The notes beneath the pieces are model-generated. The model was not told the DNA's origin. It did not search any database and was given only the letters and a program-made list of their open reading frames with translations. This document shows, piece by piece, positions 2,291 through 21,325 of a stretch of DNA of 21,325 bases (position 1 is the first letter of the stretch; each line of letters begins with the position of its first letter). The translations under genes were made by a program, and so were the position numbers. Location of the stretch: contig CAMOOA010000009.1 of assembly GCA_946621045.1 (NCBI GenBank), positions 1 through 21,325 on the forward strand, in the 5' to 3' direction. The DNA comes from an uncultured Erysipelotrichaceae bacterium (GTDB lineage Bacteria > Bacillota_I > Bacilli_A > Erysipelotrichales > Erysipelotrichaceae).

Positions 2291-2297
2291 AAAGGAG
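2291..2297 (+). promoter_or_regulatory. Ribosome binding site (AAAGGAG) deciding the lipoprotein start
   Basis: AAAGGAG stands 7 nt before ATG 2305. An in-frame ATG at 2287 lies upstream of this site and has none of its own, and starting there would add six residues before the signal peptide. Confidence 0.75.
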
Positions 2298-2304
2298 AAT
2301 TAAC

Positions 2305-3945: not shown

Positions 3946-3961
3946 TCATTAAGTGATTTAC

Positions 3962-3996
3962 ATACCGGCAGCGGAGCTTCCATACGCTGCCGGTAT
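3962..3996 (+). promoter_or_regulatory. Perfect intercistronic hairpin after the binding-protein gene
   Basis: A perfect 12-base-pair inverted repeat (arms 3962-3973 and 3985-3996, 11-nt loop) begins 16 nt after the lipoprotein stop. No T-run follows, so it is not a classical terminator. It resembles the mRNA-stabilising or partially terminating hairpins known between binding-protein and permease genes (for example malE-malF), which give a surplus of binding protein. The role here is inferred. Confidence 0.75.
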
Positions 3997-4012
3997 CCGT
4001 CATCTTCTGAAG

Positions 4013-4018
4013 AAGGAG
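4013..4018 (+). promoter_or_regulatory. Ribosome binding site (AAGGAG) deciding the LplB-type permease start
   Basis: AAGGAG lies 6 nt before ATG 4025. The frame is open back to an ATG at 3953, but that start would run through the intercistronic hairpin and has no ribosome site. Confidence 0.75.
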
Positions 4019-4024
4019 AAAGAA

Positions 4025-4924: not shown

Positions 4925-4940
4925 TGGAGGTACGGATCAT

Positions 4941-5819: not shown

Positions 5820-5827
5820 CCCCATTT

Positions 5828-5885
5828 ACCCATACTCCTGCCCTGCGGAGGACAGTGCCGCAGGGTTGGAAGATGGGTTTCTTAA
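5828..5885 (+). terminator. Compound hairpin after the permease genes, possible partial terminator
   Basis: A perfect 8-bp inner stem (5841-5848 with 5858-5865) is enclosed by a 6-bp outer stem (5828-5833 with 5873-5878), then TTTCTT. The T-run is short and interrupted, so read-through to the downstream genes is likely. It may set the ratio between transporter and enzyme expression. Confidence 0.5.
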
Positions 5886-5928
5886 ACAGAGGCAGTCGCA
5901 GATACTGCAGGATTGATTCGGAGGAAAC

Positions 5929-6708: not shown

Positions 6709-6712
6709 TAAT

Positions 6713-8941
6713 ATGCCTGTTGTATTTAATGAACAAGCTTCGACAATTACCATCAACACAGAAAACACAAGCTATCAGATGAAGATCGGTCCATGCAGTA
6801 TTCTGATGCACACCTATTACGGAGCGCGTATCGACTGCGATGCGGGTTATGCGGTGTCCTACCGGGACCGCGGCTTCTCCGTCAATCCGTATGACTCCAT
6901 TGAAAACCGGCGGGTTTCCTCGGACACGATGCCGCTGGAATACCCGTGCGAGGGAAGCGGCGATCACCGTGCCCCGGCCTTCAGCCTGCGGCGGAAAAAC
7001 GGCGCCGTCGGCTGTGATCTGCGCTATGTGAATCACAGTATTCATGCAGGAAAGTACAGTCTTCCCGGACTGCCCGCGGTATATGCGGAAGAGGAAGAGG
7101 CGGAAACGCTTCTGGTTACCCTGCAGGATCAGTCCGCGCACATCACGGTAACCCTGCAGTACGGCATTCTGCCGAAGCTGGATATTATTACCCGCGCCGC
7201 ATGTGTTGTAAATGACGGAGACGAAACGGTATTTCTCGACAATGCGGCGAGCGCAAATGTCGACATCATTGCCGGAAACTGGGAACTGATTCACTTTTAC
7301 GGAAGACATGCGGGCGAGCGCAATACCGCAAGAACGGAAATCGGCCAGCGCGAGATTGTGATCGGAAGCCGCAGAGGAATGAGCAGCCATCATGAGAACC
7401 CGTTTGTGATCCTTGCGGAGAGCGATACGACGGAACTGCACGGCCAGTGCATCGGCATGTGCTTTGTCTACAGCGGATCCTTCGCATGCAATGTATCGAA
7501 GGACGCGTTCGGAACCGTTCGCTCGGTCATGGGCATTCAGCCGGAACACTTCGATTATCCGCTGGAACCGGGTGAATCCTTCCAGGCGCCGGAAGTGATC
7601 CTTGCCTACAGCGGAAGCGGTCTTGGTCATCTGAGCCATCTGTATCACAAGGTGATTTCCGATCATATCTGCCGCGGTCCGTGGAGAAATGCGCGCCGCC
7701 CGGTTCTCATCAACAACTGGGAAGCCACCACCATGAACTTTGACGGCGATCTGATCGTTTCCATCGCAAAGAAAGCAGCTGAACTCGGTGTTGAAATGCT
7801 TGTTCTGGATGACGGATGGTTCGGCGCACGCAATACGGACATGGCAGGTCTTGGCGACTGGGTGGTCAATGAGAAGAAGCTCGGCTGCACAATGGGCGAG
7901 CTTGCGGACAAGATCCGCGCCATGGGCATGAAATTCGGTCTCTGGATCGAACCGGAAATGGTCAATGAAGACAGTGATCTGTTCCGGACGCATCCCGACT
8001 ACGCGATGCGTATTCCGGGAAAAGATCCGGCGCTTGGAAGAAACCAGCTGGTGCTGGATTTCTCAAGAGAGGAAGTCGTGGACAATATCTTCGGACAGAT
8101 TTCCAAAGTTCTCGATGAATGCAGAGCGGACTATGTGAAGATGGATATGAACCGTCCGATCGTGGATGTATATTCCGCCGTGGCGGAGTATCAGAGCCAG
8201 GGAAAGATTCTGTATAACTACATCAAAGGTGTCTACCGTTTTATGGATCTGTTGCTGGAGCGCTATCCGGATCTTCTTCTGGAAGGCTGTTCCGGAGGCG
8301 GCGGACGCTTTGACGCAGGCATGCTGTACTACTGTCCGCAGATCTGGTGCAGTGACAACACGGACGCGATTGACCGGATCCGCATTCAGTACGGCACCAG
8401 CTTCTGTTATCCGCTGAAGACGATGGGCGCGCATGTTTCTGCCGTACCCAACGGCGATACCAAGCGCTGCACGCCGATCCATACCAGAGGGGTTGTCGCA
8501 ATGGAAGGCACCTTCGGCTATGAACTGGATCTGAATCTGATCTCCGAATCCGAGATGGAAGAGGTGAAGGAACAGATCGTAACGTTCAAGAAATACTGGG
8601 ATCTTCTCCACAACGGAACGTACTACCGTCTTACCGATGTGATGAAGAACCGCTCCGAAGCCGCATGGATGATGGTTTCGGAAGATCAGAAGGAAGCGCT
8701 CGTCAATATTGTGGTGCTTGATACGACAGGCAACTGCCCGAACCGGTATATCCGGTGCGCGGGACTTGACCCGATGGCTCAGTATGAGGATGAAAAGGGA
8801 ACGGTATACTCCGGCAATGTGCTGATGACGATCGGACTTCCGATGCCTCTGAAGTATGTGCCGAATACCCAGTGGCGGGAGTCCGCACGGGAATATGACG
8901 CCTTCCAGATTCATCTTGTAAAACGGACCGTCAGCGCATAA
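6713..8941 (+). CDS. Alpha-galactosidase, glycoside hydrolase family 36
   Basis: This 742-residue enzyme is of typical length for bacterial GH36 (RafA/AgaA type). It removes terminal alpha-1,6-galactose from raffinose, stachyose, melibiose or galactomannan fragments, with retention. An N-terminal beta-sandwich (about 1-330) is followed by the TIM barrel: LDDGWFGARN (about 365-375), GLWIEPEMV, the nucleophile block VKMDMNR with Asp478, EGCSGGGGRFD, and WCSDNTDA with acid/base Asp548. As I recall, these two numbers equal those of the Geobacillus enzyme. The nucleophile block has Met where most members have Trp (KWDMNR). There is no signal peptide, so it acts in the cytoplasm on sugar imported by the ABC system upstream. 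It starts 4 nt after the membrane-protein gene and belongs to the same operon. Family assignment is firm; the exact substrate is not. Confidence 0.96.
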   Translation: MPVVFNEQASTITINTENTSYQMKIGPCSILMHTYYGARIDCDAGYAVSYRDRGFSVNPYDSIENRRVSSDTMPLEYPCEGSGDHRAPAFSLRRKNGAVGCDLRYVNHSIHAGKYSLPGLPAVYAEEEEAETLLVTLQDQSAHITVTLQYGILPKLDIITRAACVVNDGDETVFLDNAASANVDIIAGNWELIHFYGRHAGERNTARTEIGQREIVIGSRRGMSSHHENPFVILAESDTTELHGQCIGMCFVYSGSFACNVSKDAFGTVRSVMGIQPEHFDYPLEPGESFQAPEVILAYSGSGLGHLSHLYHKVISDHICRGPWRNARRPVLINNWEATTMNFDGDLIVSIAKKAAELGVEMLVLDDGWFGARNTDMAGLGDWVVNEKKLGCTMGELADKIRAMGMKFGLWIEPEMVNEDSDLFRTHPDYAMRIPGKDPALGRNQLVLDFSREEVVDNIFGQISKVLDECRADYVKMDMNRPIVDVYSAVAEYQSQGKILYNYIKGVYRFMDLLLERYPDLLLEGCSGGGGRFDAGMLYYCPQIWCSDNTDAIDRIRIQYGTSFCYPLKTMGAHVSAVPNGDTKRCTPIHTRGVVAMEGTFGYELDLNLISESEMEEVKEQIVTFKKYWDLLHNGTYYRLTDVMKNRSEAAWMMVSEDQKEALVNIVVLDTTGNCPNRYIRCAGLDPMAQYEDEKGTVYSGNVLMTIGLPMPLKYVPNTQWRESAREYDAFQIHLVKRTVSA

Positions 8942-9049: not shown

Positions 9050-9736
9050 ATGGCCAGTGAATATCTGAAATGGAAATACCGGAATGAACAGCCGGAAGAA
9101 AAACACGGTGATACGGGCCGGAACTGGAAGAACTGGTTTCATTATCACAAGTGGTTTCTGCTTGCCGGGGTGATTGTCCTGGGAATGCTGGGAAGTCTTT
9201 TTTCCGCGATGTTCGGGATCGGGAAAACAAAGCCTGATCTGGAAGTGGCGGCGGCTGTATCCGTCCTGCTTTCCGATGAGGACCTGCATTCCATGGAAGA
9301 ACAGTTTGCGCATCTTGCCGGGGATTATAACCATGACGGAAAGACCGTTGTCAGAGTCCATTACTACCGGCTGAATGCGCCGGACCATACACCGGAAAAC
9401 GATGATGAGGCGCGGATCTATTATGCAAGTGAAATACAGCTTGCCGGAGATCTGGAGGAATGCGGCAGTTTTCTGTTTCTGATGGATGATCCCGACCGGT
9501 TTCAGAGGACCTTTCAGATTCTCTCCCTGCGGGACGGATCTGAACCGGAAGAATATACGGATGCGTCCGGCTGTACAGTGCACCTTTCGGAAATCGAAGG
9601 GTTTTCGGAGATTCCCGCCGCAGAGAATCTGTATCTTGCGCGCCGGCGGTTTCCGAAAACGCAGACCGTAAAACACCTGTCTGAATGCGAAACAATGTGG
9701 AAATCGGTCACGGAACATGTGCCTGCGCAAAACTGA
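9050..9736 (+). CDS. Single-pass membrane protein of unknown function (cassette A, last gene)
   Basis: I do not recognise a named family. This 228-residue protein has a charged N-terminus (EYLKWKYRNEQPEEK) and a WKNWFHYHKW aromatic/basic motif directly before one hydrophobic span (about 35-56). An acidic domain of about 170 residues follows and probably faces outward. Similar N-termini (short charged segment, NWxHYHKW, one span) seem familiar from proteins encoded with Lpl-type importers in Clostridia, but this is from memory and not a firm homology. The outer domain lacks catalytic motifs. It is separated from GH36 by 108 nt with hairpins, and GCAGAAAGGG (9032-9041) before ATG 9050 is a modest ribosome site. 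A perfect terminator follows it, so it ends the cassette. A role as partner of the six-span protein at 5929-6708 is a guess. Confidence 0.75.
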   Translation: MASEYLKWKYRNEQPEEKHGDTGRNWKNWFHYHKWFLLAGVIVLGMLGSLFSAMFGIGKTKPDLEVAAAVSVLLSDEDLHSMEEQFAHLAGDYNHDGKTVVRVHYYRLNAPDHTPENDDEARIYYASEIQLAGDLEECGSFLFLMDDPDRFQRTFQILSLRDGSEPEEYTDASGCTVHLSEIEGFSEIPAAENLYLARRRFPKTQTVKHLSECETMWKSVTEHVPAQN

Positions 9737-9793: not shown

Positions 9794-10996
9794 TTATCCT
9801 TCCGCAAATACGGGAGCGGAGCCGGAGCGGTACTGGGAGGGCGTAATGCCGTACATCCTGCGGAAACATTTCACAAAGTAGTTGGCATCGGGTATGCCGA
9901 CCTGAGAACTGATTTCGGAGATGGTGTAGTGTGTTGATCTTAACAGCCGGGAGGCAGTCTCAATGCGGATCTTCATGAGATAGGCATTGGGTGTCATTCC
10001 GGTTTCCTTTTTAAACAGTCGGATATAATAGCCGGCACTGATGCCGAGCCTGTCAGCGGTTTCTTCCACACTGATCGGATTCTGGTAATGCCGTTCGATC
10101 TCATAGATGCCGCTCATGGTGATCGTGCTGTACTGTTCGGATTTAAAGCGCCGCACGGCTTCGCACATGACGCGGATCAGCCGTTCGGTTTCCCGGGTCA
10201 TTTCCTCCCGGCTCTGACAGCGCTGGATGTTGTGGCTGCTTTCACCGGTGATCTGATCGATCAGAACAGGGGGAAGACCTGCCTTCATGACCGCAAGCCG
10301 GATCGTAGTGCGGGTGATGGAGGAGCTGACCCGGCCGCTGTCCACCGTGGAGCCGATCCGCACCATGAAGCGGACATTGTTGTGAAGATAACGGTACAGG
10401 TCAACCGCTTCCTTTGTGCGGCCCTGGGTGATCATGTCCATCATTTCAGTTTCCGCACGGTAGCGTTCATTGACCAGCGTTTCAAAGTTCTCCCGGGTAT
10501 ACTGCCATTCATTCGGCGAACTCGGAAGTTCATCCTTCAGGGAAAGCAGGGTTTTTTCCGGAGATTCCGGTTCGACATGGGATACCAGAATCCGTATGCC
10601 GTGCAGGACATTGTTTTCGACAAGCATGGGATAATGCGACCGGTACGCCCGGTATTCCTTGACCGGAAGATTTTTAATATTGTACCGGCGGACCAGCAGT
10701 TCCACGGCAGCCTCATTGAGTTCCTCCGTACAGAAGGGACCCACTGCCGCAATCATATCCGCAAGACGGACGAGAACCACATGCATGCGAAGGATATCCC
10801 GGAAGGAGATCACCGTGCGGTCACTCAGCTGGTCGAGAATCAGACGGAAGCCCTTCGGGGTGAGGGATTTCTGGGAGGAATGAAAATGGTGCGCCTTACA
10901 GAAGGCGTCAATATCCGCATCCGTTTTGAGCAGGGTGATATCGGTTTTTGTAATTTCACTGAGAAACGAACATGCCTCGGACAGGGGAAGTGCCAT
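9794..10996 (-). CDS. AraC-family transcriptional regulator with large uncharacterised sensor domain (cassette B)
   Basis: This 400-residue protein has a C-terminal AraC DNA-binding domain at about 306-395. Its two helix-turn-helix units include ADRLGISAGYYIRLFKKETG and ISSQVGIPDANYFVKCFRR. The N-terminal 300 residues are not the AraC cupin; they contain alpha-helical segments and a stretch around 210-290 that I cannot assign. Regulators with a long N-terminal part of this kind are common in gut Clostridia. ATG 10994-10996 is preceded on the minus strand by AAGGAGG, an excellent ribosome site. It is divergent from the PTS-glucuronidase operon (155 bp between starts), so it is the likely activator of that operon, perhaps responding to a glucuronide. 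No transmembrane segment is evident. Confidence 0.92.
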   Translation of the reverse strand: MALPLSEACSFLSEITKTDITLLKTDADIDAFCKAHHFHSSQKSLTPKGFRLILDQLSDRTVISFRDILRMHVVLVRLADMIAAVGPFCTEELNEAAVELLVRRYNIKNLPVKEYRAYRSHYPMLVENNVLHGIRILVSHVEPESPEKTLLSLKDELPSSPNEWQYTRENFETLVNERYRAETEMMDMITQGRTKEAVDLYRYLHNNVRFMVRIGSTVDSGRVSSSITRTTIRLAVMKAGLPPVLIDQITGESSHNIQRCQSREEMTRETERLIRVMCEAVRRFKSEQYSTITMSGIYEIERHYQNPISVEETADRLGISAGYYIRLFKKETGMTPNAYLMKIRIETASRLLRSTHYTISEISSQVGIPDANYFVKCFRRMYGITPSQYRSGSAPVFAEG

Positions 10997-11151: not shown

Positions 11152-12534
11152 ATGGCAAAGGATTACAACGCACTTGCAAAAAACATTATTGATAATATCG
11201 GCGGGGAAGAAAATGTAATCTCTCTCGCTCATTGTGTCACTCGTCTGCGCTTCCGTCTGAAGGACGAAGGCAAGGTAAACCAGGAAGCTCTTTCCAAGGT
11301 TCCCGGCGTTCTCAAGGTCCTGCAGGCAGGCGGCCAGTACCAGGTTGTCATCGGCCAGGATGTTACAGAGGCTTATGACGCAGTACTGAAAAACTACAAC
11401 ATCAGCGCCGGCGGCGAAGTCGATGCCGATCCGGCTGACACCAAGGCAGACGGCGGAAAGAAGAAAGTAGACATTGCGGGCGGTATTGCCGACCTCGTCT
11501 CCGGTATCTTCATGCCGTTCATGGGCGCATTCATGGGCGCCGGACTTCTCAAGGGCGTACTCGTCCTGCTTACCACATTCAGCCTGCTCGACAAGGCAAG
11601 CTCCACCTACACGATTCTCTATGCGGCCGCAGACGGCGTCTTCTACTTCCTGCCGATGTTCCTGGCATACTGTGCAGGTAAGAAATTCGGCGGCAGCCCG
11701 TTCCTGACGATGGCACTTGCGGCAGCGATGCTGTATCCGAACTTCGGCGCGCTGAGCAGCTCTGAAACACCGGTTACCTTCCTCGGCATTCCGGTGACCA
11801 TGATCACCTACTCCAGCACCGTTCTTCCGATCATCGTTGCGGCATACTTCCAGGCAAAGATCGAAAAGTTCCTCAACGGTGTTCTTCCGAAGGTTGTTCG
11901 TTCCATCTTCACACCGCTCATCATCATGGCAGTGCTCTTCCCGCTCATCGTTCTCGTTGTCGGTCCGGTCACTGACATCGTCGGTAAGTTCCTTGCGAAC
12001 ATCATCAAGTCCGCACTCGACTTCGCACCGGCAATCGGCGGCTTCGCAATGGCAGCGCTCTGGCCGATCATGATCATCTTCGGTGTTCACTGGGGAATGG
12101 TTCCCATCGTTATGAACAACCACGCAGTACTCGGTTATGACTACATTCTCCCGCTCACAGTCGGCACCAACTTCGGTATCGCCGCTGCAGTATTCGCAAT
12201 CTTCCTGAAGTCCAAGCGTGCTGAGACAAAGGAAATGGCAGGTACAGCCGCAATCTCCGCATTCGTCGGCGGTGTTACAGAACCGGCAATCTACGGTATC
12301 CTCATGAAGTGCAAGAAGGTCTTCGCGGCAGTCTGCCTTGCGAACGGTATCGGCGGCGCAATCTGCGGCATCATGCACGTAACACGTGATACCATGATTA
12401 CAGTCAACGGCCTTACCCTCCCGGCAATCGCGGCAGTGTACGGTCCGTGGGGAATCGTTGCGATCGTAATCTCGATGATCGCAGGCTTCGCGGCCGGATT
12501 CCTGCTGTTCAAAGATGAAATGATGGATGCCTGA
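11152..12534 (+). CDS. PTS permease EIIBC of the glucose/beta-glucoside superfamily, lacking EIIA
   Basis: This 460-residue protein begins with an EIIB domain (about 1-85) whose phosphocysteine is Cys28 in SLAHCVTRLRF. A polar linker (about 86-108) leads to a membrane EIIC domain with about ten spans and the conserved GGVTEPAIYG (373-382). It corresponds to the beta-glucoside/trehalose/sucrose branch (full BCA proteins about 620 residues) minus the C-terminal EIIA, so EIIA must be supplied in trans. GGAGG stands just before ATG 11152. All of the roughly 28 phenylalanine codons I read are TTC, a sign of selection for high expression. The only downstream enzyme is a beta-glucuronidase and no phospho-glycosidase is nearby, which makes the substrate puzzling. 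Family is firm; substrate unknown. Confidence 0.93.
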   Translation: MAKDYNALAKNIIDNIGGEENVISLAHCVTRLRFRLKDEGKVNQEALSKVPGVLKVLQAGGQYQVVIGQDVTEAYDAVLKNYNISAGGEVDADPADTKADGGKKKVDIAGGIADLVSGIFMPFMGAFMGAGLLKGVLVLLTTFSLLDKASSTYTILYAAADGVFYFLPMFLAYCAGKKFGGSPFLTMALAAAMLYPNFGALSSSETPVTFLGIPVTMITYSSTVLPIIVAAYFQAKIEKFLNGVLPKVVRSIFTPLIIMAVLFPLIVLVVGPVTDIVGKFLANIIKSALDFAPAIGGFAMAALWPIMIIFGVHWGMVPIVMNNHAVLGYDYILPLTVGTNFGIAAAVFAIFLKSKRAETKEMAGTAAISAFVGGVTEPAIYGILMKCKKVFAAVCLANGIGGAICGIMHVTRDTMITVNGLTLPAIAAVYGPWGIVAIVISMIAGFAAGFLLFKDEMMDA

Positions 12535-12559: not shown

Positions 12560-14368
12560 ATGCTTGAAACAACGATGATTTATCCCGCCACAAATGAAAC
12601 ACGGCTCGCGCTGAAACTGGATGATATGTGGCACTTCCGTTTTGATCCGAAATCGGAAGGAGAAGCACAGGGCTGGAAGGACGGCATTCACAGTGATGTC
12701 ACGGTTCCGGTGCCGGGAAGCTTTCAGGAAAGCTTTACCGACAGCGCATCCCGCACCTACTGCGGCGACTTCTGGTATGAATATGACTTCTTCGTTCCTT
12801 CCTTCCGGAAGGATCAGGCAGTCCAGCTGCGCTTCGGCAGTATTGCCCATCGCTCTGTGGTTTATCTCAACGGCACAAAGATCGGGGAACAGGAAGGCGG
12901 TTACCTTCCTGTCCTCCTCGATATCACCGATGCGGTAAAACCCAATGCGGTGAACAAAGTTGTCGTAAAGGCAAACAACGAACTGAACGAAACGTCCATC
13001 CCGTGCGGTGCCGTAAAGACACTGGCGGATGGACGGAAAATCGCCAAGCCGTACTTTGACTTCTTCAACTACGCCGGCATTCAGCGCAGCGTGTGGCTGC
13101 ACATCGTGCCGAAGGAAGCAATCCTCGACTACGATACGGACTACTGCATCGACGGAGAGAATGCATGCGTGAAGTATTCCGTAACGCACAACTCGAACCA
13201 TGCAGTGCATGTGGTTCTGAAGGATGCGGAAGGAAATACCGTTGCGGAAGGAACCGGCGCAGAAGGTGAGCTTACGGTCAGGAATGCGCACCTCTGGGAT
13301 GTCCGGGCGCCGTATCTCTATACGACTGAGATCTTCCTCTGCGAAGGAGAAACCGTATGCGATGTCATCCGCGAAAAGATCGGCATCCGCACGGTACGGA
13401 TCGAAGGAACTTCCATTCTTCTGAATGACAAGCCGGTCTATCTGAAGGGCTTCGGCAAGCATGAAGACTTCCCGGTTTACGGAAAGGGCTTCAGCTGGCC
13501 GGTCGTGAAGTATGACTTTGAATGCATGAAGTGGATCCATGCCAACTGTTTCCGCACCAGCCATTATCCGTATGCGGAGGAATGGTACCGGTATGCGGAT
13601 GAGCAGGGCTTCCTCATCATCGATGAGGTGCCTGCCGTCGGCATGATGCGCTCCACCCACAACTTCGTGGATGCGGGTACCGGAAAGTATACATACTTCT
13701 TTGAAATTCCGACCGTCGGACTGCTGAAGGAGCATCACATTTCCCAGGTGCGTCAGATGATCACAAGAGACAAGAACCACCCGTCGGTCATTGCCTTCAG
13801 TCTCTTCAATGAGCCGGAGACCACAAGTGAATATGCGGAACAGTATTTCCGCGATGTGTTTGAGGCAGCGCGGAAGATGGATCCGCAGAAGCGTCCGCTG
13901 ACCGGCGCGTTTGAGAAGAACAGTTCGCCGGAAAAAGACCGCTGTGTGCAGTTCTGCGACTTTGTCTGCCTGAACCGCTACTACGGATGGTATATCTCGG
14001 GCGGCGAGGACTTCCCGGAAGCGGAGATGAAATTCCGCGATGAGATGGACCGCTGGAAGGCAAAGAATCTGAACAAGCCGTTTGTCTTCACCGAGTTCGG
14101 ATGCGATACGCTGGAATCACTGCACAGCCTCTCGGCAGAGCAGTGGTCGCAGGAATACCAGCAGAAATACATGGAAATGAATTTCCGGGTATTCGATGAC
14201 TATGACTTCGTGCAGGGAGAGCTTGCATGGGCATTCGCCGACTTCCAGACATCGGAAGGCATCTTCCGTGTCGGCGGCAATAAAAAAGGCGTCTTCACCA
14301 GAGACCGCAAACCCAAACAGGTTGCGCAGGACTTCCGCAGACGCTGGGAAACAAAGAACGGAAAGTAA
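12560..14368 (+). CDS. uidA: Beta-glucuronidase, glycoside hydrolase family 2
   Basis: This 602-residue protein has the length and layout of E. coli UidA: sugar-binding jelly roll (about 25-185), immunoglobulin-like domain (to about 285), then the TIM barrel. It has the acid/base Glu418 in NEPET and the nucleophile Glu512 in TEFGCDTL. The NxK motif in GGNKKG (Asn574, Lys576), which recognises the glucuronate carboxylate, is also present. Segments such as GFGKHED, NCFRTSHYPYAEEW and GIFRVGGNKKG match UidA closely. It hydrolyses beta-D-glucuronides to glucuronic acid and aglycone. Between PAVGM and KNHPSV it has an insertion of the same length as I recall for E. coli, which resembles Loop 1 enzymes. 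There is no signal peptide, so it is cytoplasmic. It begins 25 nt after the PTS permease and is cotranscribed with it. Confidence 0.96.
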   Translation: MLETTMIYPATNETRLALKLDDMWHFRFDPKSEGEAQGWKDGIHSDVTVPVPGSFQESFTDSASRTYCGDFWYEYDFFVPSFRKDQAVQLRFGSIAHRSVVYLNGTKIGEQEGGYLPVLLDITDAVKPNAVNKVVVKANNELNETSIPCGAVKTLADGRKIAKPYFDFFNYAGIQRSVWLHIVPKEAILDYDTDYCIDGENACVKYSVTHNSNHAVHVVLKDAEGNTVAEGTGAEGELTVRNAHLWDVRAPYLYTTEIFLCEGETVCDVIREKIGIRTVRIEGTSILLNDKPVYLKGFGKHEDFPVYGKGFSWPVVKYDFECMKWIHANCFRTSHYPYAEEWYRYADEQGFLIIDEVPAVGMMRSTHNFVDAGTGKYTYFFEIPTVGLLKEHHISQVRQMITRDKNHPSVIAFSLFNEPETTSEYAEQYFRDVFEAARKMDPQKRPLTGAFEKNSSPEKDRCVQFCDFVCLNRYYGWYISGGEDFPEAEMKFRDEMDRWKAKNLNKPFVFTEFGCDTLESLHSLSAEQWSQEYQQKYMEMNFRVFDDYDFVQGELAWAFADFQTSEGIFRVGGNKKGVFTRDRKPKQVAQDFRRRWETKNGK

Positions 14369-14380
14369 CAGAACCGTGAG

Positions 14381-14407
14381 GCAGTGCGCAGCCGCGCACT
14401 GCTTTTT
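14381..14407 (+). terminator. Strong Rho-independent terminator after the glucuronidase
   Basis: A perfect 9-bp GC-rich stem (14381-14389 with 14394-14402), a 4-nt loop and TTTTT. It ends the PTS-glucuronidase operon 12 nt after its last stop codon. Confidence 0.93.
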
Positions 14408-14431
14408 ACATGCGAAAAAGATAAAGCGGAA

Positions 14432-15703
14432 TCAGGGGTTCACCGGATGATCCTGTCTGCGGTACTTCGCAGGAGTAACGCCGGTCACGGCCCGGAAGGT
14501 CTGAATGAAATAGCTCGGGGTCGCAAAGGCCAGCTGTTCGGAGATCTCCGCAACCGGCAGTGCGGTTGTCTCAAGCAGGATCTTTGCCTTATGGATCCTT
14601 GCGTCACGCAGGTAGGTGCTGACAGACTTTCCGGTTTCGGCCCTGAACTTTTCCGTCAGGTAATATTCCGAGTAGCCGACCAGTGCCGCAAGATCGGCCG
14701 CGGTGATCTTCCGGTTCAGGGACAGCTCAATATAGTCGCAGCATTTCTGCACGGCATGGGAATAGTTCGGGTTGCTTTTAAGGTGATGGACCCGGTAGAT
14801 GAAATCATGCAGCATGGTGTTTCCCAGCATGCTCAGCTCACCGGTGTCATGCGAGTTTTCCGTCATCTGAATATAGTAGTCGCCCAGCGGATAGGCAATT
14901 TCCGGAGAGAGGCCGCCTTCCATGGCTGCCCGGGTAACCAGTGTGGTAAAGACGATCAGTGAGGTTTTGATCTGCCGCAGGAGCTCGCGGCCGGTGACCG
15001 GCACGCCGGGGGAAAGGGAAGCACTCTGCTGGAGCGCATCATGATAGGCGATATTGCCGTCCCGCACCGCCTGCAGTAATGCCTGTTCTGCCTGATAGAC
15101 CGCAAGCCGGTTGCGGGTACCGGCTGAACTGAATGCAGCTTTTGTCCCGGAGGGTTCCGAAGGGCGGTCAATGTCCCCAAAACCGATCTGTTCCCCGGTC
15201 AGGGCATTGTGCACAAGAATGACATAGCGGGTAAAGACCGCATAGGACATGAGCGGAATATCATTGATCCGGTCGCAGAGCTGTTTCGGCCAGGTGAACT
15301 GCTTCTTTCCAAGGATCGCCGTATACAGCGCATTCCGGAAGCTGTCCGGATCCGGCCGCAGGTAAAAGACCGGACCGCAGACAAACAGCAGGGTTTCCTC
15401 CCGCACGGTTTCGATGGTGACCGCCCACTGCATGCCGACTTCCGAGCCGATGATGCGGGGAAATACGGTAGTTTTATCCTTCACAAGGTCCAGCGCGCGG
15501 GAAAGACCGCCGAGCGCGCGGAAGGCCTGATCCAGCGGATGGACAAGATGGTCCGGGCAGCGGACCGCAATAAACTCTCCGGTATCGGAATAACACCAGA
15601 CATAAAACCGGTCCGATTCGGGAATGATGGACTGCAGTAATAACAGATTCTGTTCCGCCCGGCTGACGCCCTGGACAGAAACCGTGGTATTGGACTCGCT
15701 CAT
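14432..15703 (-). CDS. AraC-family transcriptional regulator (cassette C)
   Basis: This 423-residue protein has a C-terminal AraC domain (about 331-420, with LAALVGYSEYYLTEKFRAETG and ISEQLAFATPSYFIQTFRAVTG). Its N-terminal region is long (about 300 residues) and I cannot assign it; it shows no cupin and no membrane span. It differs clearly from the other two regulators here. ATG 15701-15703 has no Shine-Dalgarno sequence, and an in-frame TAA lies four codons upstream, so the start is here or further inside. Translation may be weak or start at an internal codon. It is divergent from the symporter-GH2 operon (206 bp between starts) and is its likely activator, perhaps sensing a galactoside, uronide or rhamnoside. 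Confidence 0.88.
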   Translation of the reverse strand: MSESNTTVSVQGVSRAEQNLLLLQSIIPESDRFYVWCYSDTGEFIAVRCPDHLVHPLDQAFRALGGLSRALDLVKDKTTVFPRIIGSEVGMQWAVTIETVREETLLFVCGPVFYLRPDPDSFRNALYTAILGKKQFTWPKQLCDRINDIPLMSYAVFTRYVILVHNALTGEQIGFGDIDRPSEPSGTKAAFSSAGTRNRLAVYQAEQALLQAVRDGNIAYHDALQQSASLSPGVPVTGRELLRQIKTSLIVFTTLVTRAAMEGGLSPEIAYPLGDYYIQMTENSHDTGELSMLGNTMLHDFIYRVHHLKSNPNYSHAVQKCCDYIELSLNRKITAADLAALVGYSEYYLTEKFRAETGKSVSTYLRDARIHKAKILLETTALPVAEISEQLAFATPSYFIQTFRAVTGVTPAKYRRQDHPVNP

Positions 15704-15743
15704 AACTGATTTTTAACATTATTTCCTGCAGGATTTCAACCGG

Positions 15744-15762
15744 AAGCGCATAAACTGCGCTT
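15744..15762. repeat. Short inverted repeat upstream of cassette C, possible operator or leader hairpin
   Basis: AAGCGCA and TGCGCTT are separated by TAAAC (7-bp perfect arms), with TTTT following on the plus strand. It sits in the leader of the minus-strand AraC gene, 41-59 nt from its start. It could be an autoregulatory operator or a small hairpin. Confidence 0.45.
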
Positions 15763-15829
15763 TTTCTGCGTTTTCAAAAAATATCATTATCCTTAATTTC
15801 TGACATTTTTCCGGAATGATTGACTTTAT

Positions 15830-15843
15830 GGAAAGCGCTTGCA
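15830..15843 (+). promoter_or_regulatory. cre-like catabolite-response site (CcpA operator)
   Basis: GGAAAGCGCTTGCA fits the cre consensus TGWAARCGYTWNCW at 13 of 14 positions, missing only the first base, just like the site of cassette A. It lies 67 nt upstream of the symporter start and just after TTGACT. Repression of cassette C by preferred sugars is implied. Confidence 0.7.
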
Positions 15844-15909
15844 AAACCATAATGAAAGCAGATAAACCGGCAGATATATTCCGGAACAGAAAAAGAGAGG
15901 ATAGAGTAC

Positions 15910-17424
15910 ATGGAAAACACAAACAAAGTTCCTGCATCCGAAGCGGTTCATTACCGCAAAGCCAAACTCTGGCAGATCATCCTTGTGGCGTTCAACGCTT
16001 TCAACGGCATGGCTGTCTACTTCCTGATCGGTCTTGCGAGCTATTCCGCATCGATCGGCTATGGTATCGCGACACTTGCGGTAGGAGGACTGCTGACCTT
16101 CACACGTATCTTTGATGCTATTACCGATCCGATTCTGGCCTTCCTGTATGACCGTGTGATGACGCCGTTTGGAAAAGTGCGTCCGCTGATGCTTGGGGGT
16201 TGGGTAATCCAGAGCGCAGGTCTCCTCTGCATGTTCAACTTTTTTTCCAGCAAAGGACATGGCGTCGCAACATTCCTTGGCTTCTATATGCTTTATGTAA
16301 TCGGTTATACAATCGTAAATATGACTGCACAGACACTTCCTGCGCTGATGACAAACGATCCGAAGCAGCGCCCGACAGTCGGTGTCTGGCAGACAGTCCT
16401 GAACTATATCACTCCGATGGTATTGAATATTATCGTCTACACAAAGCTGATGCCGGCTTACGGCGGAAACTTCAATCAGGAATTTCTGAATATCGTAACC
16501 TGGTTCTGCGTAACAATTTCCTTTATCGGTGTAGTTCTGGTGTGCATTGGCATTGCGGCATATGACAAACCGGAAAACTTCGAGGGAATCGGTAAAACAG
16601 AACATCTGAAGCTGAAAGATATGATGGATGTTCTCAAGAACAATAAACCGCTGCAGAGTTATATTATTTCAGCCTCTTCTGACAAGATCGCTCAGCAGGC
16701 AGCCGCTGCTTCCATTGTCGGCACGATGCTGAATGGTATTCTTATTGGGAATATGGGACTTGCGACAACGCTCAGCGTAATCGGAATGCTGCCGAGTATT
16801 CTGTTTGCGATCCTGGGGGCACGCTATGCCGGGAAACACGGAAACAAAGAGTCCATCGTTACCTGGACGCGCTACTCCCTGTATGCCAACGTGGCTATCA
16901 TTGTCTTCTTTACGATTTTACGGTTTACAACGGGAACACATACCATCGCAACGATGGGACCGAGCATGATCCTGTATGTAGTTCTTACCTTTATCGTTAA
17001 CGGTTTTGCGATGTGTGTCACAACCGCAAACGTTGGTTTTATGGCAGATATCATTGACTACGAACTTGATCGTTCGGGCAAATATATTCCGGCAGTAGTG
17101 ACAGGAACATACAGTCTTGTGGATAAAATCGTTTCTTCCTTTTCGGCCGCAATCGCGACGGGATGTGTAGCTCTGATCGGTTATACAACGACGATGCCGC
17201 AGCCGGGTGATCCTTCTACAATGGGCGTATTCATCATGACAATGTTCCTTCGCTACGGACTCGCGATTCTCGGTTTCATCTGCACCCTGCTCGCAATGCG
17301 TTCCTGCAAGCTCAACCGTGAGGAAATGGTTCATGTCCAGCAGCGTATCGAAAACAAAAAACATGCAAAGCAGGAAGAATTATTCAGCGAAGAACTGCAT
17401 AAAGGAGATCCTGCAAATGCGTAA
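15910..17424 (+). CDS. GPH-family sugar:cation symporter (glycoside-pentoside-hexuronide type)
   Basis: This 504-residue membrane protein has about twelve spans. The N-terminal signature RIFDAITDPILAFLYDR (about 66-82) contains the paired aspartates (69, 73) that in MelB-type symporters take part in cation and sugar binding. It is followed by KVRP (89-92), the counterpart of the GRFRP loop. A second conserved region, MADIIDYELDRSGKYIPAVVTGTYSLVDKI as the family's cytoplasmic loop, is near residues 378-408. Known substrates of the family include melibiose, glucuronides (UidB) and xylosides. Here it leads an operon with a GH2 enzyme and an alpha-rhamnosidase, so it probably imports their glycoside substrate with Na+ or H+. 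Its last 8 nt overlap the next gene. Specificity is inferred. Confidence 0.93.
   Translation: MENTNKVPASEAVHYRKAKLWQIILVAFNAFNGMAVYFLIGLASYSASIGYGIATLAVGGLLTFTRIFDAITDPILAFLYDRVMTPFGKVRPLMLGGWVIQSAGLLCMFNFFSSKGHGVATFLGFYMLYVIGYTIVNMTAQTLPALMTNDPKQRPTVGVWQTVLNYITPMVLNIIVYTKLMPAYGGNFNQEFLNIVTWFCVTISFIGVVLVCIGIAAYDKPENFEGIGKTEHLKLKDMMDVLKNNKPLQSYIISASSDKIAQQAAAASIVGTMLNGILIGNMGLATTLSVIGMLPSILFAILGARYAGKHGNKESIVTWTRYSLYANVAIIVFFTILRFTTGTHTIATMGPSMILYVVLTFIVNGFAMCVTTANVGFMADIIDYELDRSGKYIPAVVTGTYSLVDKIVSSFSAAIATGCVALIGYTTTMPQPGDPSTMGVFIMTMFLRYGLAILGFICTLLAMRSCKLNREEMVHVQQRIENKKHAKQEELFSEELHKGDPANA
17401..17407 (+). promoter_or_regulatory. Ribosome binding site (AAAGGAG) inside the symporter gene, deciding the GH2 start
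   Basis: AAAGGAG stands 9 nt before ATG 17417. The frame is open back to 17318, but that start lies 107 nt inside the symporter gene and would add 33 residues foreign to GH2 enzymes. Confidence 0.75.
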
Positions 17425-19609
17425 TATCAGGGTATTAAGCGACGGATGGAAGTTTGTAAAGCAGGCTGCTGGCGTTGAACAGGCCATGCATGCGGAGGGA
17501 GAGAGCATCTCTCTTCCGCATACCTGGAATGCGATCGACGGTCAGGACGGCGGAAATGACTATTACCGCGGAACCTGCTGGTATGTCAGAGAACTGAGCG
17601 AGGAAGAACTGTCCGGTGAATGCGCATACCTTGAATTCAACGGCGCCGCGATGCGGGCAGACGTCTACGTCAACGGCATTCTCGCAGACCATCATGACGG
17701 CGGTTATTCCACGTTCCGCATCGATCTCAGTGCATATAAAGGAAATACGGTAATCGCAGTCGCGGTAAACAACGAAGACAATACCTGCGTCTATCCCCAG
17801 AAGGCGGACTTCACCTTCTACGGCGGTCTCTACCGCGAGGTAAAACTGATTTCTGTTCCGAAGGAGCACTTTGAACTGCTTAAGGACGGAACCCCCGGCA
17901 TCAAGGTCACACCGTGTGTGGACTTCGACGCAAAACGGGCTGTTGTGACCGTGGAGACCTGGCAGAACAGTGACAACGTTTCCGTTACCGTAAACAATGA
18001 AACAAAAACCGTTCCTTCCGAGAACGGACATGCATGCGCAGAATTCACGATTGAAAACGTGCATCTCTGGGACGGCCCGGACGATCCGTATCTCTACACC
18101 GCAAAGGCGTGCCTTGAAAGCGGCGATGAAATCAGCACCCGCTTCGGATGCCGGGTATTTGCCTGCGATCCGCAGAAGGGCTTCTTCCTCAACGGACGGA
18201 GCTATCCGCTGCGCGGCGTGAGCCGCCACCAGGATCATAAGGGAAGCGGAAATGCGCTCTCTTATGAAGAACATGCGGAAGACATGAAGATCATCCGGGA
18301 GCTCGGCGCCAATACACTGCGGCTTGCCCATTACCAGCATGCGCAGGAGTTCTATGACCTGTGCGATGAAAACGGCATCGTGGTCTGGGCGGAGATCCCG
18401 TATATCACCATGCATATGACAAACGGCCGGGAAAACACGCTCTCCCAGATGAAAGAACTGATCACCCAGTGCTACAACCATCCCAGCATTGCGGTATGGG
18501 GTCTCTCCAATGAGATCACAGCCGCAAGCGCGGTGAATGAAGACCTGCTCGAAAACCACCGGCTGCTCAATGAGCTCTGCCATAAGATGGATCCGACACG
18601 TCTTACCACCATGGCGAATGTCTTCATGCTGGAGATCGACAGCCCGATCCTTGAGATCCCCGATATCAACAGCTACAACCTCTACTTCGGCTGGTATCTC
18701 GGCGAACTCGAACAGACAGATGAATTCTTTGATGAATATCATGCGAAATACCCGGATCGTGTCATCGGCTTCTCCGAATACGGTGCGGATGCCAACCCGG
18801 CATTCCATTCATCAAAACCGGAGAAGGGCGACTACACCGAGGAATATCAGGCGCTCTATCACGAACATATGCTGAAGATGATCGAAGAACGTCCGTATCT
18901 CTGGGCAACGCATGTATGGAATCTCTTCGACTTTGCGGCGGACGGACGCGATGAAGGCGGAAAGCACGGCGAAAACCAGAAGGGCCTTGTGACCTTTGAC
19001 CGGACGCTGCGCAAGGATGCATTCTATCTGTATAAGGCAGCCTGGAATAAGAACGAACCGTTCGTTCACCTCTGCGGCAAGCGCTACGTCAACCGCTGTG
19101 AGGAAGAGACCGAAATCAAGGTCTATTCCAACTGCAGTAAGGTGACACTGTATGTCGACGGCAATAAAATTGATACAAAAGAAGGAAAGACTGTATTCAC
19201 CTTCCGGATCCCGCTGCTTGGCGAGCATCTGATCAAAGCGGAGGCAGACGGAGTCGAAGACACCATGTGCATCCACCGGGTATCGGAGCCGGAGGAATCC
19301 TACATCTTCAATAAGGCATCCGCATCCGTAACCAACTGGTTTGACGCGGATAATACCGATCCTGCATATTTCTCGCTTCAGGATACACTCGGTGAGATTC
19401 AGGCGCATCCGCAGGCCGGCGCAATCATTGATCAGATGATGGCAAAAGGCGCATCCGAACGCGGCGATGTGGCGGATGCGGTAAAGGACAACCCGGCGCT
19501 CAAGCGCATGATGGGAAGAATGACACTCATCAGCCTGCTCAAACAGAGCGGCGCGGATGAGGAGAGTATGAAACAGCTCAACCGGATATTACAGGGGATT
19601 AAAAAATGA
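17417..19609 (+). CDS. Glycoside hydrolase family 2, beta-galactosidase-like, with extra C-terminal helical tail
   Basis: This 730-residue enzyme has the GH2 order: jelly-roll sugar-binding domain (about 1-165), immunoglobulin-like domain (to about 260) and TIM barrel with RGVSRHQDH. The acid/base is Glu366 (GLSNEI) and the nucleophile Glu454 (GFSEYGAD). The block FDFAADGRDEGG...GLVTFDR fits a group usually annotated beta-galactosidase. Asn520-Gln521-Lys522 lies where glucuronidases have NxK, but many GH2 beta-galactosidases have N-D-K there, so a uronidase role is possible but not shown. A further domain (about 560-630) is followed by a helical tail (about 637-730) of unknown role. There is no signal peptide, so it is cytoplasmic. 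It overlaps the symporter gene by 8 nt and shares ATGA with the next gene, a tightly coupled operon. Confidence 0.9.
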   Translation: MRNIRVLSDGWKFVKQAAGVEQAMHAEGESISLPHTWNAIDGQDGGNDYYRGTCWYVRELSEEELSGECAYLEFNGAAMRADVYVNGILADHHDGGYSTFRIDLSAYKGNTVIAVAVNNEDNTCVYPQKADFTFYGGLYREVKLISVPKEHFELLKDGTPGIKVTPCVDFDAKRAVVTVETWQNSDNVSVTVNNETKTVPSENGHACAEFTIENVHLWDGPDDPYLYTAKACLESGDEISTRFGCRVFACDPQKGFFLNGRSYPLRGVSRHQDHKGSGNALSYEEHAEDMKIIRELGANTLRLAHYQHAQEFYDLCDENGIVVWAEIPYITMHMTNGRENTLSQMKELITQCYNHPSIAVWGLSNEITAASAVNEDLLENHRLLNELCHKMDPTRLTTMANVFMLEIDSPILEIPDINSYNLYFGWYLGELEQTDEFFDEYHAKYPDRVIGFSEYGADANPAFHSSKPEKGDYTEEYQALYHEHMLKMIEERPYLWATHVWNLFDFAADGRDEGGKHGENQKGLVTFDRTLRKDAFYLYKAAWNKNEPFVHLCGKRYVNRCEEETEIKVYSNCSKVTLYVDGNKIDTKEGKTVFTFRIPLLGEHLIKAEADGVEDTMCIHRVSEPEESYIFNKASASVTNWFDADNTDPAYFSLQDTLGEIQAHPQAGAIIDQMMAKGASERGDVADAVKDNPALKRMMGRMTLISLLKQSGADEESMKQLNRILQGIKK

Positions 19610-20451
19610 GAACAGCAGTGCAGCAGATTATGCTCGGAACCGTGACGGATACCGAGGCGAAGGCAAAGGAAACTCTGAAGCGCATCAAGGACGCCGGCTA
19701 TGACGGCCTGGAACTCAACCGCTTCATGATTCATCCGTCTTCTCTGATGGTGCGTCTTATGACACGGGCCGCAGGCATGCCGACGGGAAAAGGCGGAAAC
19801 CTCAACTGGAAACAGCTTCTGGAAGACGCCGGACTGTCGGTGATCAGCCTTCATGCAGATCTTGGAAGTCTCGAGCGCGAGCCGGAGGCAGTGATCAATG
19901 AGGCGAAGGAATTCCACACCGATACGGTGGTGATCACCGGAATGTACCGCTTTGACTATTCCGATGAGACTACCGTACGGGACCTTGCGTCACGTCTGAA
20001 CAAATCCGGTGCACTGCTTAAGGAACAGGGCATTTCCCTGCTGTATCACAATCACAACACGGAGCTCTTACAGGTGAAGCCGGGCGTGACCGCCTATGAC
20101 ATCCTGCTGGAGGAAACCGATCCGGAATATGTGAACTTTGAGTTTGACAGCTACTGGTTCACAGACGGCGGCGCCAGTGCGGAGAAGTGGATGAAAAAGC
20201 TCGGCTCCCGCATGAAGCTCTGGCATGTCACCGACCGCGGGTTCCGGCAGAAGGGACCGTCCATGACACCGATTCTCAAAGCCGACAGTGTGGAACTCGG
20301 AACCGGAACGATGGATCTGGATACCCTGAAGGATATCGCGGTGGAAAACGGAGTCAGCGCGGTGGTTCTGGAAAGTCATAAGAACTGGATCGATAAGGAT
20401 CCAATAAAGAGTCTGGAACTCAGCGCAAAATGGATGAATGAGAGGTTCTGA
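19606..20451 (+). CDS. Sugar isomerase/epimerase-like protein, AP-endonuclease-2 (xylose isomerase-like) TIM barrel
   Basis: This 281-residue protein has the xylose-isomerase-like barrel of sugar-phosphate isomerases/epimerases. Likely metal ligands are Glu153 (YHNHNTE), Asp181 (FEFDSYW), His207 (LWHVTD) and Glu256 (VVLES), with a GTGTMD segment near 232-237. The superfamily covers sugar and keto-sugar isomerases and epimerases, inositol dehydratase (IolE) and the large subunit of C-glycoside-cleaving enzymes, so the reaction is open. It is not L-rhamnose isomerase, which is longer (about 420 residues). Its ATG overlaps the GH2 stop (ATGA, 19606-19609) with AGGGGA upstream as ribosome site. 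The alpha-rhamnosidase starts 3 nt after its stop. It presumably processes a sugar released by one of these glycosidases. Confidence 0.85.
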   Translation: MRTAVQQIMLGTVTDTEAKAKETLKRIKDAGYDGLELNRFMIHPSSLMVRLMTRAAGMPTGKGGNLNWKQLLEDAGLSVISLHADLGSLEREPEAVINEAKEFHTDTVVITGMYRFDYSDETTVRDLASRLNKSGALLKEQGISLLYHNHNTELLQVKPGVTAYDILLEETDPEYVNFEFDSYWFTDGGASAEKWMKKLGSRMKLWHVTDRGFRQKGPSMTPILKADSVELGTGTMDLDTLKDIAVENGVSAVVLESHKNWIDKDPIKSLELSAKWMNERF

Positions 20452-20454
20452 ACT

Positions 20455-21325
20455 ATGGAAATGAAGAACCATGCATTACCGAATACATGGAAGGCGGTAT
20501 GGATCGATCCCGAATCGGAACACGATGCGGAAGCGGTTCAGCCGGCTTCTGTATTGAAGCGGACATTTGACGCTGTCCGCGGTACCGAAGCGGTATTCTA
20601 TATCACCTGCCACGGTCTGTATGAGGCATACCTCAACGGAACACGGATCGGCGAAGCGGTGCTTGCGCCGGGAACCGGGGACTATAAACAGCGCCTGTTT
20701 GTGCAGGCGTATGATGTGACTTCCCTGCTCAGAGAAGGCGCAAATGAACTGTGCGTCATTCTCGGAGACGGTTGGTACCGCGGAAGCGTCGGCATTGACG
20801 GACTGCGCAATTACTACGGCAGCGATCTTGCGCTGCTTGCCCAGCTCGAAATCGACGGCACGCCGGCGGTATGGACCGATGAGCAGTGGCAGGCATCACA
20901 GAATGGTCCTGTCAGAGAAAATGATCTCCAGCAGGGCGAAGGTTATGATGCACGCATGGAAGAGATCACGGACTGGCATCCGGTAACCGCAAAAGATTAC
21001 GGCTATGACAATCTGGTAATCGATGACGGCGTTCCGGTGCTTGAACAGGAACGCTTCACAGGCAAAGTGATCACCACTCCGAACGGACAGACCGTGATTG
21101 ATTTCGGACAGAATCTTGCCGGCTATACAGAAATCAAAGTCACTGCGCATGCAGGGGAGACGATCTCGCTGCGCCATGGGGAAACCCTGGATGAAAACGG
21201 AAACTTTACGCAGGCAAACTTTGCGCCGGGCGACCGCAACCCGCACGGGGAGATTGCCCAGAAGTTTACGTGCATCTGTAAGGAAGGGGAGAATGTCTTC
21301 AAGCCCCGCTTCAGCATCTACGGCT
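20455..21325 (+). CDS. Alpha-L-rhamnosidase, glycoside hydrolase family 78, N-terminal part (3' truncated by window)
   Basis: The frame from ATG 20455 stays open to the window end (290 codons) without a stop. The visible part matches the N-terminal beta-sandwich domains of bacterial GH78: LKRTF, HGLYEAYLNGTRIGEAVLAPGTGDY, GDGWYRG (104-110), VIDFGQN (about 214-220) and LRHGETLDENG, ending before the SIYGFRY-type junction. The catalytic (alpha/alpha)6 barrel with its acidic residues lies beyond the window, so activity cannot be confirmed. The enzyme family removes terminal alpha-L-rhamnose from flavonoid glycosides, saponins, rhamnogalacturonan fragments and arabinogalactan. No signal peptide is present, so it is cytoplasmic. 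AGAGG (20441-20445) precedes the start. It is the fourth gene of the symporter-GH2 operon. Confidence 0.92.
   Translation, partial: MEMKNHALPNTWKAVWIDPESEHDAEAVQPASVLKRTFDAVRGTEAVFYITCHGLYEAYLNGTRIGEAVLAPGTGDYKQRLFVQAYDVTSLLREGANELCVILGDGWYRGSVGIDGLRNYYGSDLALLAQLEIDGTPAVWTDEQWQASQNGPVRENDLQQGEGYDARMEEITDWHPVTAKDYGYDNLVIDDGVPVLEQERFTGKVITTPNGQTVIDFGQNLAGYTEIKVTAHAGETISLRHGETLDENGNFTQANFAPGDRNPHGEIAQKFTCICKEGENVFKPRFSIYG

Follow-up and report, generated by a model that had tools for sequence, protein, structure and literature searches.

The DNA analyzed here is a window of 21,325 nucleotides from an uncultured Erysipelotrichaceae bacterium (assembly GCA_946621045.1, contig CAMOOA010000009.1, positions 1 to 21,325). 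Its last third, cassette C (14432-21325), is likely to be the beginning of an operon for scavenging a plant glycoside that contains rhamnose and glucuronic acid. Cassette C corresponds to the first half of an operon that is conserved and widely shared among gut bacteria and apparently undescribed; our literature searches found no description of it. The operon joins a beta-glucuronidase (GUS) of the flavin mononucleotide (FMN)-binding type to a candidate eliminase gene. The arrangement of the adjacent cassette B is known. The enzyme activities of the operon are predicted from protein families, gene order, and catalytic motifs.

An operon with an FMN-type glucuronidase

Cassette C begins with AraC2, an AraC-family regulator on the minus strand (14432-15703; Pfam HTH_18/HTH_AraC), which diverges from four genes on the plus strand: a GPH-type glycoside/hexuronide symporter (15910-17424), the glycoside hydrolase (GH) family 2 enzyme GUS2 (17417-19609), an AP_endonuc_2 TIM barrel of 281 amino acids (19606-20451), and a GH78 alpha-L-rhamnosidase gene of which the window includes the 5' part only (20455-21324). 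The TIM-barrel gene had been overlooked in an earlier, sequence-only reading of this DNA. Since the genes overlap (8 bp for GPH and GUS2, 4 bp for GUS2 and the TIM barrel) or nearly touch (a 3-bp gap between the TIM barrel and GH78), we infer that they form a single transcript. The symporter, already recognized as such in the sequence-only reading, scored above the cut-off of PF13347 (MFS_2) and reached 113 bits with TIGR00792, below the cut-off of 231. The enzymes had also been described as devoid of signal peptides, and none was apparent when the N-termini were judged by eye, without a predictor.

GUS2 is, by its sequence, a beta-glucuronidase of the FMN-binding type. In a phmmer search of all PDB sequences, its full length matched 7KGZ best (1,092.8 bits), with 6MVG (796.9 bits) and 6MVH next, and the alignment with 7KGZ extends across residues 1-733 and includes the C-terminal region. 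7KGZ is Roseburia hominis 3 GUS (Rh3), an FMN-binding enzyme in which the FMN lies ~30 Å from the active site and in which F406 and Y430 matter for the processing of triclosan glucuronide, according to the available text of PMC8748916. By manual count on the 7KGZ alignment, GUS2 carries F and Y at these two positions. PF02837, PF00703, and PF02836, which make up the GH2 architecture, were all above their cut-offs. The catalytic glutamates are located in LSNE (363-366) and SEYG (453-456), patterns that match 57/59 and 59/59 of the orthologs described below, and the N-x-K motif, which we take to be the glucuronidase motif for the glucuronate carboxylate, is present as NQKG at 520-523, with a loose pattern fitting 59/59 orthologs. 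The best NCBIfam model was that of the glucuronidase LacZ4, at 539 bits, below its cut-off of 950.

The sequence-only reading had taken GUS2 for a GH2 beta-galactosidase. We rejected this assignment because the NCBIfam beta-galactosidase models gave only 73-230 bits against cut-offs of at least 900, the top matches are FMN-binding glucuronidases, and the N-x-K motif is present. Such a label is easily given: PDB entries 6mvh and 8ges bear the name beta-galactosidase, yet 6MVH is the structure of R. hominis 2 GUS. The two GH2 enzymes of the window are thus both of the glucuronidase type, and a GH2 beta-galactosidase is not among its genes. The proposed triad of a glucuronidase, a GH2 beta-galactosidase, and a GH78 rhamnosidase is therefore wrong as stated.

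Conservation and variants of the operon

With the TIM barrel as a query, 244 loci were found in named genomes, and the best 80 of these were compared. Partners were counted by tblastn only where the flank was long enough, GH78 being sought within 8 kb on either side of the TIM barrel. A relative of the divergent AraC gene was found in 55/59 loci, GPH upstream of the TIM barrel in 58/61, GUS2 in 59/68, GH78 in 66/71, GH43 in 55/66, and GH1 in 42/59. All six partners were present in 32 of the 47 loci with full flanks, and the exact order AraC-GPH-GUS2-TIM-GH78-GH43-GH1 was seen in 32 of the 80 loci. Among the nearest genomes, AraC-GPH-GUS2-TIM-GH78 is common to G004 (in a divergent form), G005, G006, G008, G013, and G021, and the short contig of G036 runs from GPH through to a cut GH78. 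Where the contig extends further (G008, G006, G013, G005, and G004), GH43-type and GH1-type genes follow GH78, with profile matches, at least in part, for three of these GH43/GH1 sets. The GH43 protein is remote from solved structures (best PDB match, 39.8 bits). The GPH gene of G013 (UBA3691; L034:12663-14177) lies in two frames, owing either to a sequencing error or to a broken gene. When the search of the genus sample started from GUS2 instead, all six matches at 71-80% identity were located in the operon.

The titles of the 80 loci name a ruminant host in 29 cases and rabbit (Lapin) bins in 7, while 21 others bear RUG codes, which presumably denote rumen genomes; the groups named are Clostridia, Oscillospiraceae, Lachnospiraceae, Ruminococcaceae, Christensenellaceae, and Erysipelotrichaceae. 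The whole set also occurs in two records that carry no label of a metagenome-assembled genome (MAG) or of an uncultured organism and that we took as isolates, Clostridiales bacterium NK3B98 (L073) and Erysipelotrichaceae bacterium NK3D112 (L092). Median identities over the loci, a few nonoperon matches included, were 72-80%, as calculated against the window for GPH, GUS2, and the TIM barrel and against the proteins of relatives for GH78, GH43, and GH1. Such values across groups so distant suggest lateral transfer.

As to GH78, the window contains the first 290 codons, with PF08531 and PF05592 (the N-terminal and concanavalin-like domains), and the catalytic domain lies beyond its end. The presence of a GH78 enzyme, claimed in the sequence-only reading, thus holds for this N-terminal piece. 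The full-length orthologs carry the catalytic domain, PF17389, and the relatives in L031, L037, and L043 hold PF08531, PF05592, PF17389, and PF17390. The ortholog of L031 aligns over residues 37-742 to 3w5m, which we take to be SaRha78A, and has Glu at both presumed catalytic positions, E636 and E895 of 3w5m being, on our assumption, the catalytic acid/base Glu. A lack of catalytic acids, which the sequence-only reading had named as a possible flaw, is accordingly not seen in this ortholog, while the catalytic part of the window's own enzyme remains out of view. Among the GH78 proteins of the loci, patterns for the two Glu match 57/66 and 59/66, the misses belonging mostly to a more distant GH78 type (48-54% identity).

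The operon also comes in variants. In six loci (L050, L078, L083, L107, L115, and L117), a GH35 beta-galactosidase gene, in two pieces in L050 and L107, immediately follows or precedes GH43, and GH1 is not called. NCBIfam GH35_fam gave 493.5 bits for L083 and 476.7 bits for L078 (cut-off, 500), and the best PDB match for L083 was 3u7v. Five of these loci are among the 17 counted without GH1; L107 ends too early for that count. The occurrence of GH35 in place of GH1 suggests, short of proof, that GH1 also serves a beta-galactoside. In 6/80 loci (L058, L059, L083, L098, L099, and L117; Pfam on L059), a gene between GUS2 and the TIM barrel encodes an SGNH esterase, whose N-terminus shows a hydrophobic stretch by eye. 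Finally, the seven rabbit loci (L097, L100, L103, L104, L106, L108, and L113) encode a protein of ~525 amino acids directly 3' of the TIM barrel. This family occurs in 11/80 loci (e.g., L103:10965-12539) and stands together with GUS2 in L055 and L085; no Pfam match was obtained for the member searched and no PDB match by profile (best E, 0.12), and its structure model, predicted to be beta-rich, was poor (mean predicted local distance difference test score, 45).

Probable fate of the released sugars

For the catabolic genes, we picked 32 genomes by eye. They come from a set of 39 loci in which GPH, GUS2, GH78, GH43, and GH1 are all in view, and of which L047, L055, L058, L098, L099, L116, and L118 were left out; in L048, L049, and L054, the GPH gene is cut and AraC is out of view. 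UxaC was present in 29/32 genomes and a strong RhaD match (at least 304 bits) in 26/32, 15 of which were above the cut-off. RhaA was found in 4/32, and RhaI was above its cut-off in none of the 32. RhaD clusters with a rhamnulokinase and with a protein of 472-508 amino acids that weakly resembles arabinose/fucose isomerases and that is whole in 14 of the 16 neighborhoods fetched from among the 26 strong hits; of the other two, one has RhaA in that slot (G074) and one is cut by a contig end. The isomerase-like protein mostly adjoins RhaD and is one gene away in L133. Typically of ~473 amino acids (L128:3631-5052 and 13 further RhaD neighborhoods among L124-L139), it gave a best NCBIfam score of 37 bits in a profile check made on L128 only. 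The L-rhamnose isomerases named in the available text of PMC3870299 are of the RhaA and RhaI types only, and we propose that the ~473-amino-acid protein is probably a nonorthologous L-rhamnose isomerase.

Rhamnose genes adjoin the operon itself in 5/80 loci (L070, L085, L093, L096, and L117), and UxuA-type and mannonate-oxidoreductase-type genes lie by it in 4/80 (L054, L056, L063, and L079; profile in L063 only). Together with the presence of RhaD and UxaC, these adjoining genes support a true release of L-rhamnose and D-glucuronate. We suggest the following course. The GPH symporter would import a small plant oligosaccharide or glycoside with terminal alpha-L-rhamnose and beta-D-glucuronic acid. 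Once it is in the cytoplasm, GH78 would take off the rhamnose and the FMN-type GUS the glucuronate, and the downstream GH43 and GH1 (GH35 in other genomes) would remove further residues, which are probably arabinose or xylose as well as galactose or glucose. Rhamnose would then be degraded through rhamnulokinase and RhaD, and glucuronate through UxaC and UxuA, and the TIM barrel may act on an oxidized (3-keto) glycoside intermediate.

Several observations weigh against this model or narrow its reach. Because similarity to the TIM barrel was the criterion for choosing the loci, the partner rates are conditional on the TIM-barrel clade. Of four GUS2 relatives inspected at ~60% identity, only that of G004 is in the operon; L041 and L042 have no TIM barrel downstream, and the contig of L040 ends 150 bp past GUS2. 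In a sample of 392 genomes of the phylum, a GUS2 relative at 1e-150 was found in only 10 genomes, with a best identity of 63%. GH43 and GH1 lie beyond the window, and their presence in the source genome rests on synteny. In the rabbit Lachnospiraceae variant, GPH, the TIM barrel, and, where the contig allows, GH78 are found and GUS2 is missing in all six loci that are long enough, which indicates that the glucuronidase is not obligatory. Lastly, UxaC is lacking in 3/32 genomes, RhaA in 28/32, and a strong RhaD in 6/32, most of them MAGs by title.

The candidate eliminase

By both sequence and fold, the only close solved relatives of the TIM barrel (19606-20451) are 3-keto-glycoside beta-eliminases and uncharacterized kin. 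The metal and catalytic residues of the eliminase AtOGE are His132, His134, Asp163, His189, and Glu233, according to the available text of PMC10628242. The TIM-barrel residues H148, H150, D181, H207, and E256, invariant in a 30-row alignment, were matched to these by motif and strand order rather than by residue-by-residue superposition, and the four motif patterns were found in 80, 77, 80, and 80 of the 80 loci. We thus regard the TIM barrel as a candidate 3-keto-glycoside beta-eliminase. P0001, seemingly a longer TIM-barrel protein, proved by eye to be an artifact of an internal repeat. A TIM barrel of the same family occurs outside the operon in L105 (8470-10846), directly 3' of a dihydroorotate-dehydrogenase/4Fe-4S-type gene.

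A substantial possibility, if short of probable, is that the TIM barrel, instead of being an eliminase, simply isomerizes or epimerizes one of the released sugars. The rarity of RhaA and RhaI prompted us to consider it as the missing L-rhamnose isomerase, a role for which the isomerase-like protein already clusters with RhaD; a role as glucuronate isomerase was likewise set aside, UxaC being already present in 29/32 genomes. Neither released sugar therefore seems to need the TIM barrel, and its nearest kin also speak against a plain isomerase. A bolder version of the eliminase assignment, tentative and on the doubtful side, is a hybrid operon that would combine two ways of cutting one plant glycoside: hydrolysis (FMN-GUS, GH78, GH43, and GH1/GH35) and oxidation with beta-elimination. 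In the latter, the TIM barrel would be a lyase of a 3-keto-glycoside, perhaps a 3-keto-glucuronide, supplied by an oxidoreductase encoded elsewhere. No C3 oxidoreductase family was seen among the 14 largest unexplained clusters of neighbors in the related loci (836 genes, 279 clusters), and a search for PF01408 on three operon contigs (G085 C1, G066 C61, and G088 C71) gave one borderline match only, ~70 kb off.

Candidate substrates

The sequence-only reading had proposed a substrate of rhamnose, glucuronic acid, and galactose, such as a soyasaponin or an arabinogalactan. The sugars are retained, given the conservation of GH78 and FMN-GUS, the GH1 or GH35 partner, and the adjoining catabolic genes; the enzyme set put forward for them was wrong. 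It had also proposed a search for the three families conserved together in other genomes: FMN-GUS and GH78 are conserved together, the phosphotransferase system (PTS)-GUS1 pair of cassette B is outside the conserved order, and a GH35 beta-galactosidase is found in six loci. Both arabinogalactan tips and saponins are compatible with a set of rhamnose, glucuronate, probably galactose, and a GH43 sugar. A small-sugar symporter and cytoplasmic enzymes favor an oligosaccharide, while an eliminase-like gene and an esterase favor a decorated glycoside. If the operon model is right, the best single glycan is a rhamnose-glucuronate-galactose(-arabinose) arabinogalactan tip, a choice that falls just short of probable, and saponin or flavonoid glycosides come second, as a somewhat unlikely alternative.

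One specific account, a reasonable possibility although not the probable one, is that the operon takes up, through GPH, side-chain oligosaccharides of arabinogalactan proteins or pectin (rhamnose-glucuronate-galactose with arabinose) that other bacteria free outside the cell. The sugars are the same, the GH35/GH1 and GH43 partners and the small-sugar transporter fit, and no secreted endo-enzyme was noticed among the recurrent neighbors listed, as expected of a scavenger; but the conserved order contains no ABC importer, and GH43, at a best score of 39.8 bits, is too remote for a call between arabinofuranosidase and galactanase.

The stripping of a triterpenoid saponin of the soyasaponin or alfalfa type appears rather unlikely. 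Here GH78 would remove rhamnose, GH1/GH35 galactose, GUS2 the glucuronate from the aglycone, and GH43 the arabinose or xylose of a second chain, which amounts to the sequence-only reading with its enzymes corrected. The sugar set fits, soyasaponins being composed of rhamnose, galactose, and glucuronic acid. Ruminants (29) and rabbits (7) are among the hosts in the 80 titles, the TIM barrel is similar to enzymes that cleave natural-product glycosides by elimination, and the F and Y of GUS2 correspond to the residues that help Rh3 on an aryl glucuronide. In addition, a figure legend of PMC7230228 indicates a nearly complete conversion of soyasaponin I to soyasapogenol B within 48 h by human fecal inocula. 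Against this account, the import of a large amphipathic saponin is doubtful, as GPH symporters transport small sugars and the enzymes, judged by eye, seem to be cytoplasmic. Moreover, the 14 largest clusters of recurrent neighbors showed no gene that we recognized as acting on a triterpene.

It is very unlikely that the operon serves mainly glucuronides or xenobiotics, with GH78 acting on something separate. FMN-GUSs do process mycophenolate and triclosan glucuronides in vitro, as the available texts of PMC9377255 and PMC8748916 report, but GH78 lies within 8 kb in 66/71 loci and rhamnose catabolism is linked in 5/80.

Neighboring units of the window

From the open reading frames and Pfam matches, the window holds three sugar units in tandem, A, B, and C. 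Unit A (2287-8941; Pfam) comprises an ATP-binding cassette (ABC) importer and a GH36 alpha-galactosidase (6656-8941; Pfam), which bears out the neighboring alpha-galactosidase of the sequence-only reading. Two proteins of 259 (5929-6708) and 228 (9050-9736) amino acids, with no Pfam match at 0.001, flank the GH36 gene, and at its start the window truncates an FMN-dependent dehydrogenase (PF01070), of which the C-terminal end remains (3-503).

Cassette B consists of its own AraC-family regulator on the minus strand (9794-10996; Pfam), a PTS EIIBC of the beta-glucoside/sucrose type on the plus strand (11152-12534; PF00367 and PF02378 above cut-off, TIGR01995 458 bits with a cut-off of 614.7), and GUS1, an RgGUS-type GH2 beta-glucuronidase, also on the plus strand (12560-14368). 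The glucuronidase assignment of GUS1, made in the sequence-only reading, was confirmed by NCBIfam PRK10150 (666.8 bits; cut-off, 544) and by the closest PDB entries, 5z18/6ec6 (907 bits). In the genus sample, the GUS1-like matches at 61-65% identity (L140-L143) have a PTS gene just upstream in 4/4 cases, in one only as a fragment. The PTS beside GUS1 relatives takes two forms, a fused EIIBC as in the window or a separate EIIB and EIIC of the lactose/cellobiose type (Pfam on L038). Among ten GUS1 matches at 51-55%, five have GPH beside GUS1 instead (L147, L148, L151, L152, and L153), and L149 gave no gene list. The pairing of a PTS with a glucuronidase is curious in that glucuronate has no 6-hydroxyl to phosphorylate; the PTS might import a glucuronosyl-hexose.

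We considered cassettes B and C as one unit and rejected this, given that B has its own AraC and that the window's PTS is unmatched in the 80 loci, three of which contain GUS1-like genes (L047, 38%; L066, 43%; L091, 59%). The separation is nevertheless not clean and some link is possible: in G005 (L038:311-6562), a PTS-GUS1 pair lies on the opposite strand one MatE-type gene beyond GH1, the cassettes adjoin in the window as well, and G008 has a GUS1 relative upstream of the operon.

In the AraC2/GPH intergenic region, a pattern search allowing 1 mismatch retrieved a palindrome like a catabolite-responsive element (cre), GGAAAGCGCTTGCA (15830-15843), to which a regulatory meaning can only be ascribed conjecturally. 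A second palindromic cre-like site lies in the promoter region of the ABC unit (2179-2192). The pattern has 11 matches in the window against 5.3 expected, and 11 were reached in 5/100 shuffles; the sites were graded weak, their number being only about twice that of chance. None of the 25 14-mers shared most widely among 51 intergenic regions occurs in that of the window.

Significance and comparison with known systems

FMN-binding glucuronidases are known for their action on drugs: they correlate with mycophenolate reactivation in human fecal samples (available text of PMC9377255), and they act on triclosan glucuronide in vitro, but the turnover of this compound in fecal extracts did not follow their abundance (available text of PMC8748916). 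The conserved operon probably places a glucuronidase of this type in plant glycoside use. As a close relative of these enzymes is tied to a rhamnosidase, GH43, and GH1/GH35, with genes of rhamnose and glucuronate catabolism nearby in some genomes, a natural plant substrate becomes directly testable. If the hybrid operon were true, these enzymes would gain a natural partner pathway as well as a plant substrate. Confirmation of the eliminase-like gene, for its part, would bring the oxidative cleavage of glycosides to hydrolase operons of rumen bacteria.

GUS2 resembles R. hominis 3 GUS (7KGZ) and R. hominis 2 GUS (6MVH) in its full-length GH2 match, its catalytic motifs, its N-x-K, and its alignable C-terminal region; it differs from them in being encoded in an operon with GPH, the TIM barrel, GH78, GH43, and GH1, and its FMN binding is predicted. 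Cassette B is a separate unit whose arrangement has already been described: the RgGUS operon of R. gnavus holds a PTS transporter and a putative beta-glucosidase, according to the available text of PMC10112845. Like that operon, cassette B couples a PTS gene to an RgGUS-type enzyme (907 bits), which is encoded downstream; unlike what is seen there, its AraC is divergent and no beta-glucosidase gene lies between PTS and GUS. The GH78 ortholog of L031 keeps both catalytic Glu of SaRha78A (3w5m), lacks its long N-terminal part, and is one residue shorter before the acid Glu. Finally, the TIM barrel shares 24-27% identity over aligned residues with the 3-keto-glycoside beta-eliminase AtOGE (8bvk) and with the 3-keto-beta-glucopyranoside-1,2-lyases AL1 and BT1 (8tcr and 8tct), but in contrast to these eliminases, it lies among hydrolases, with no linked C3 oxidoreductase found.

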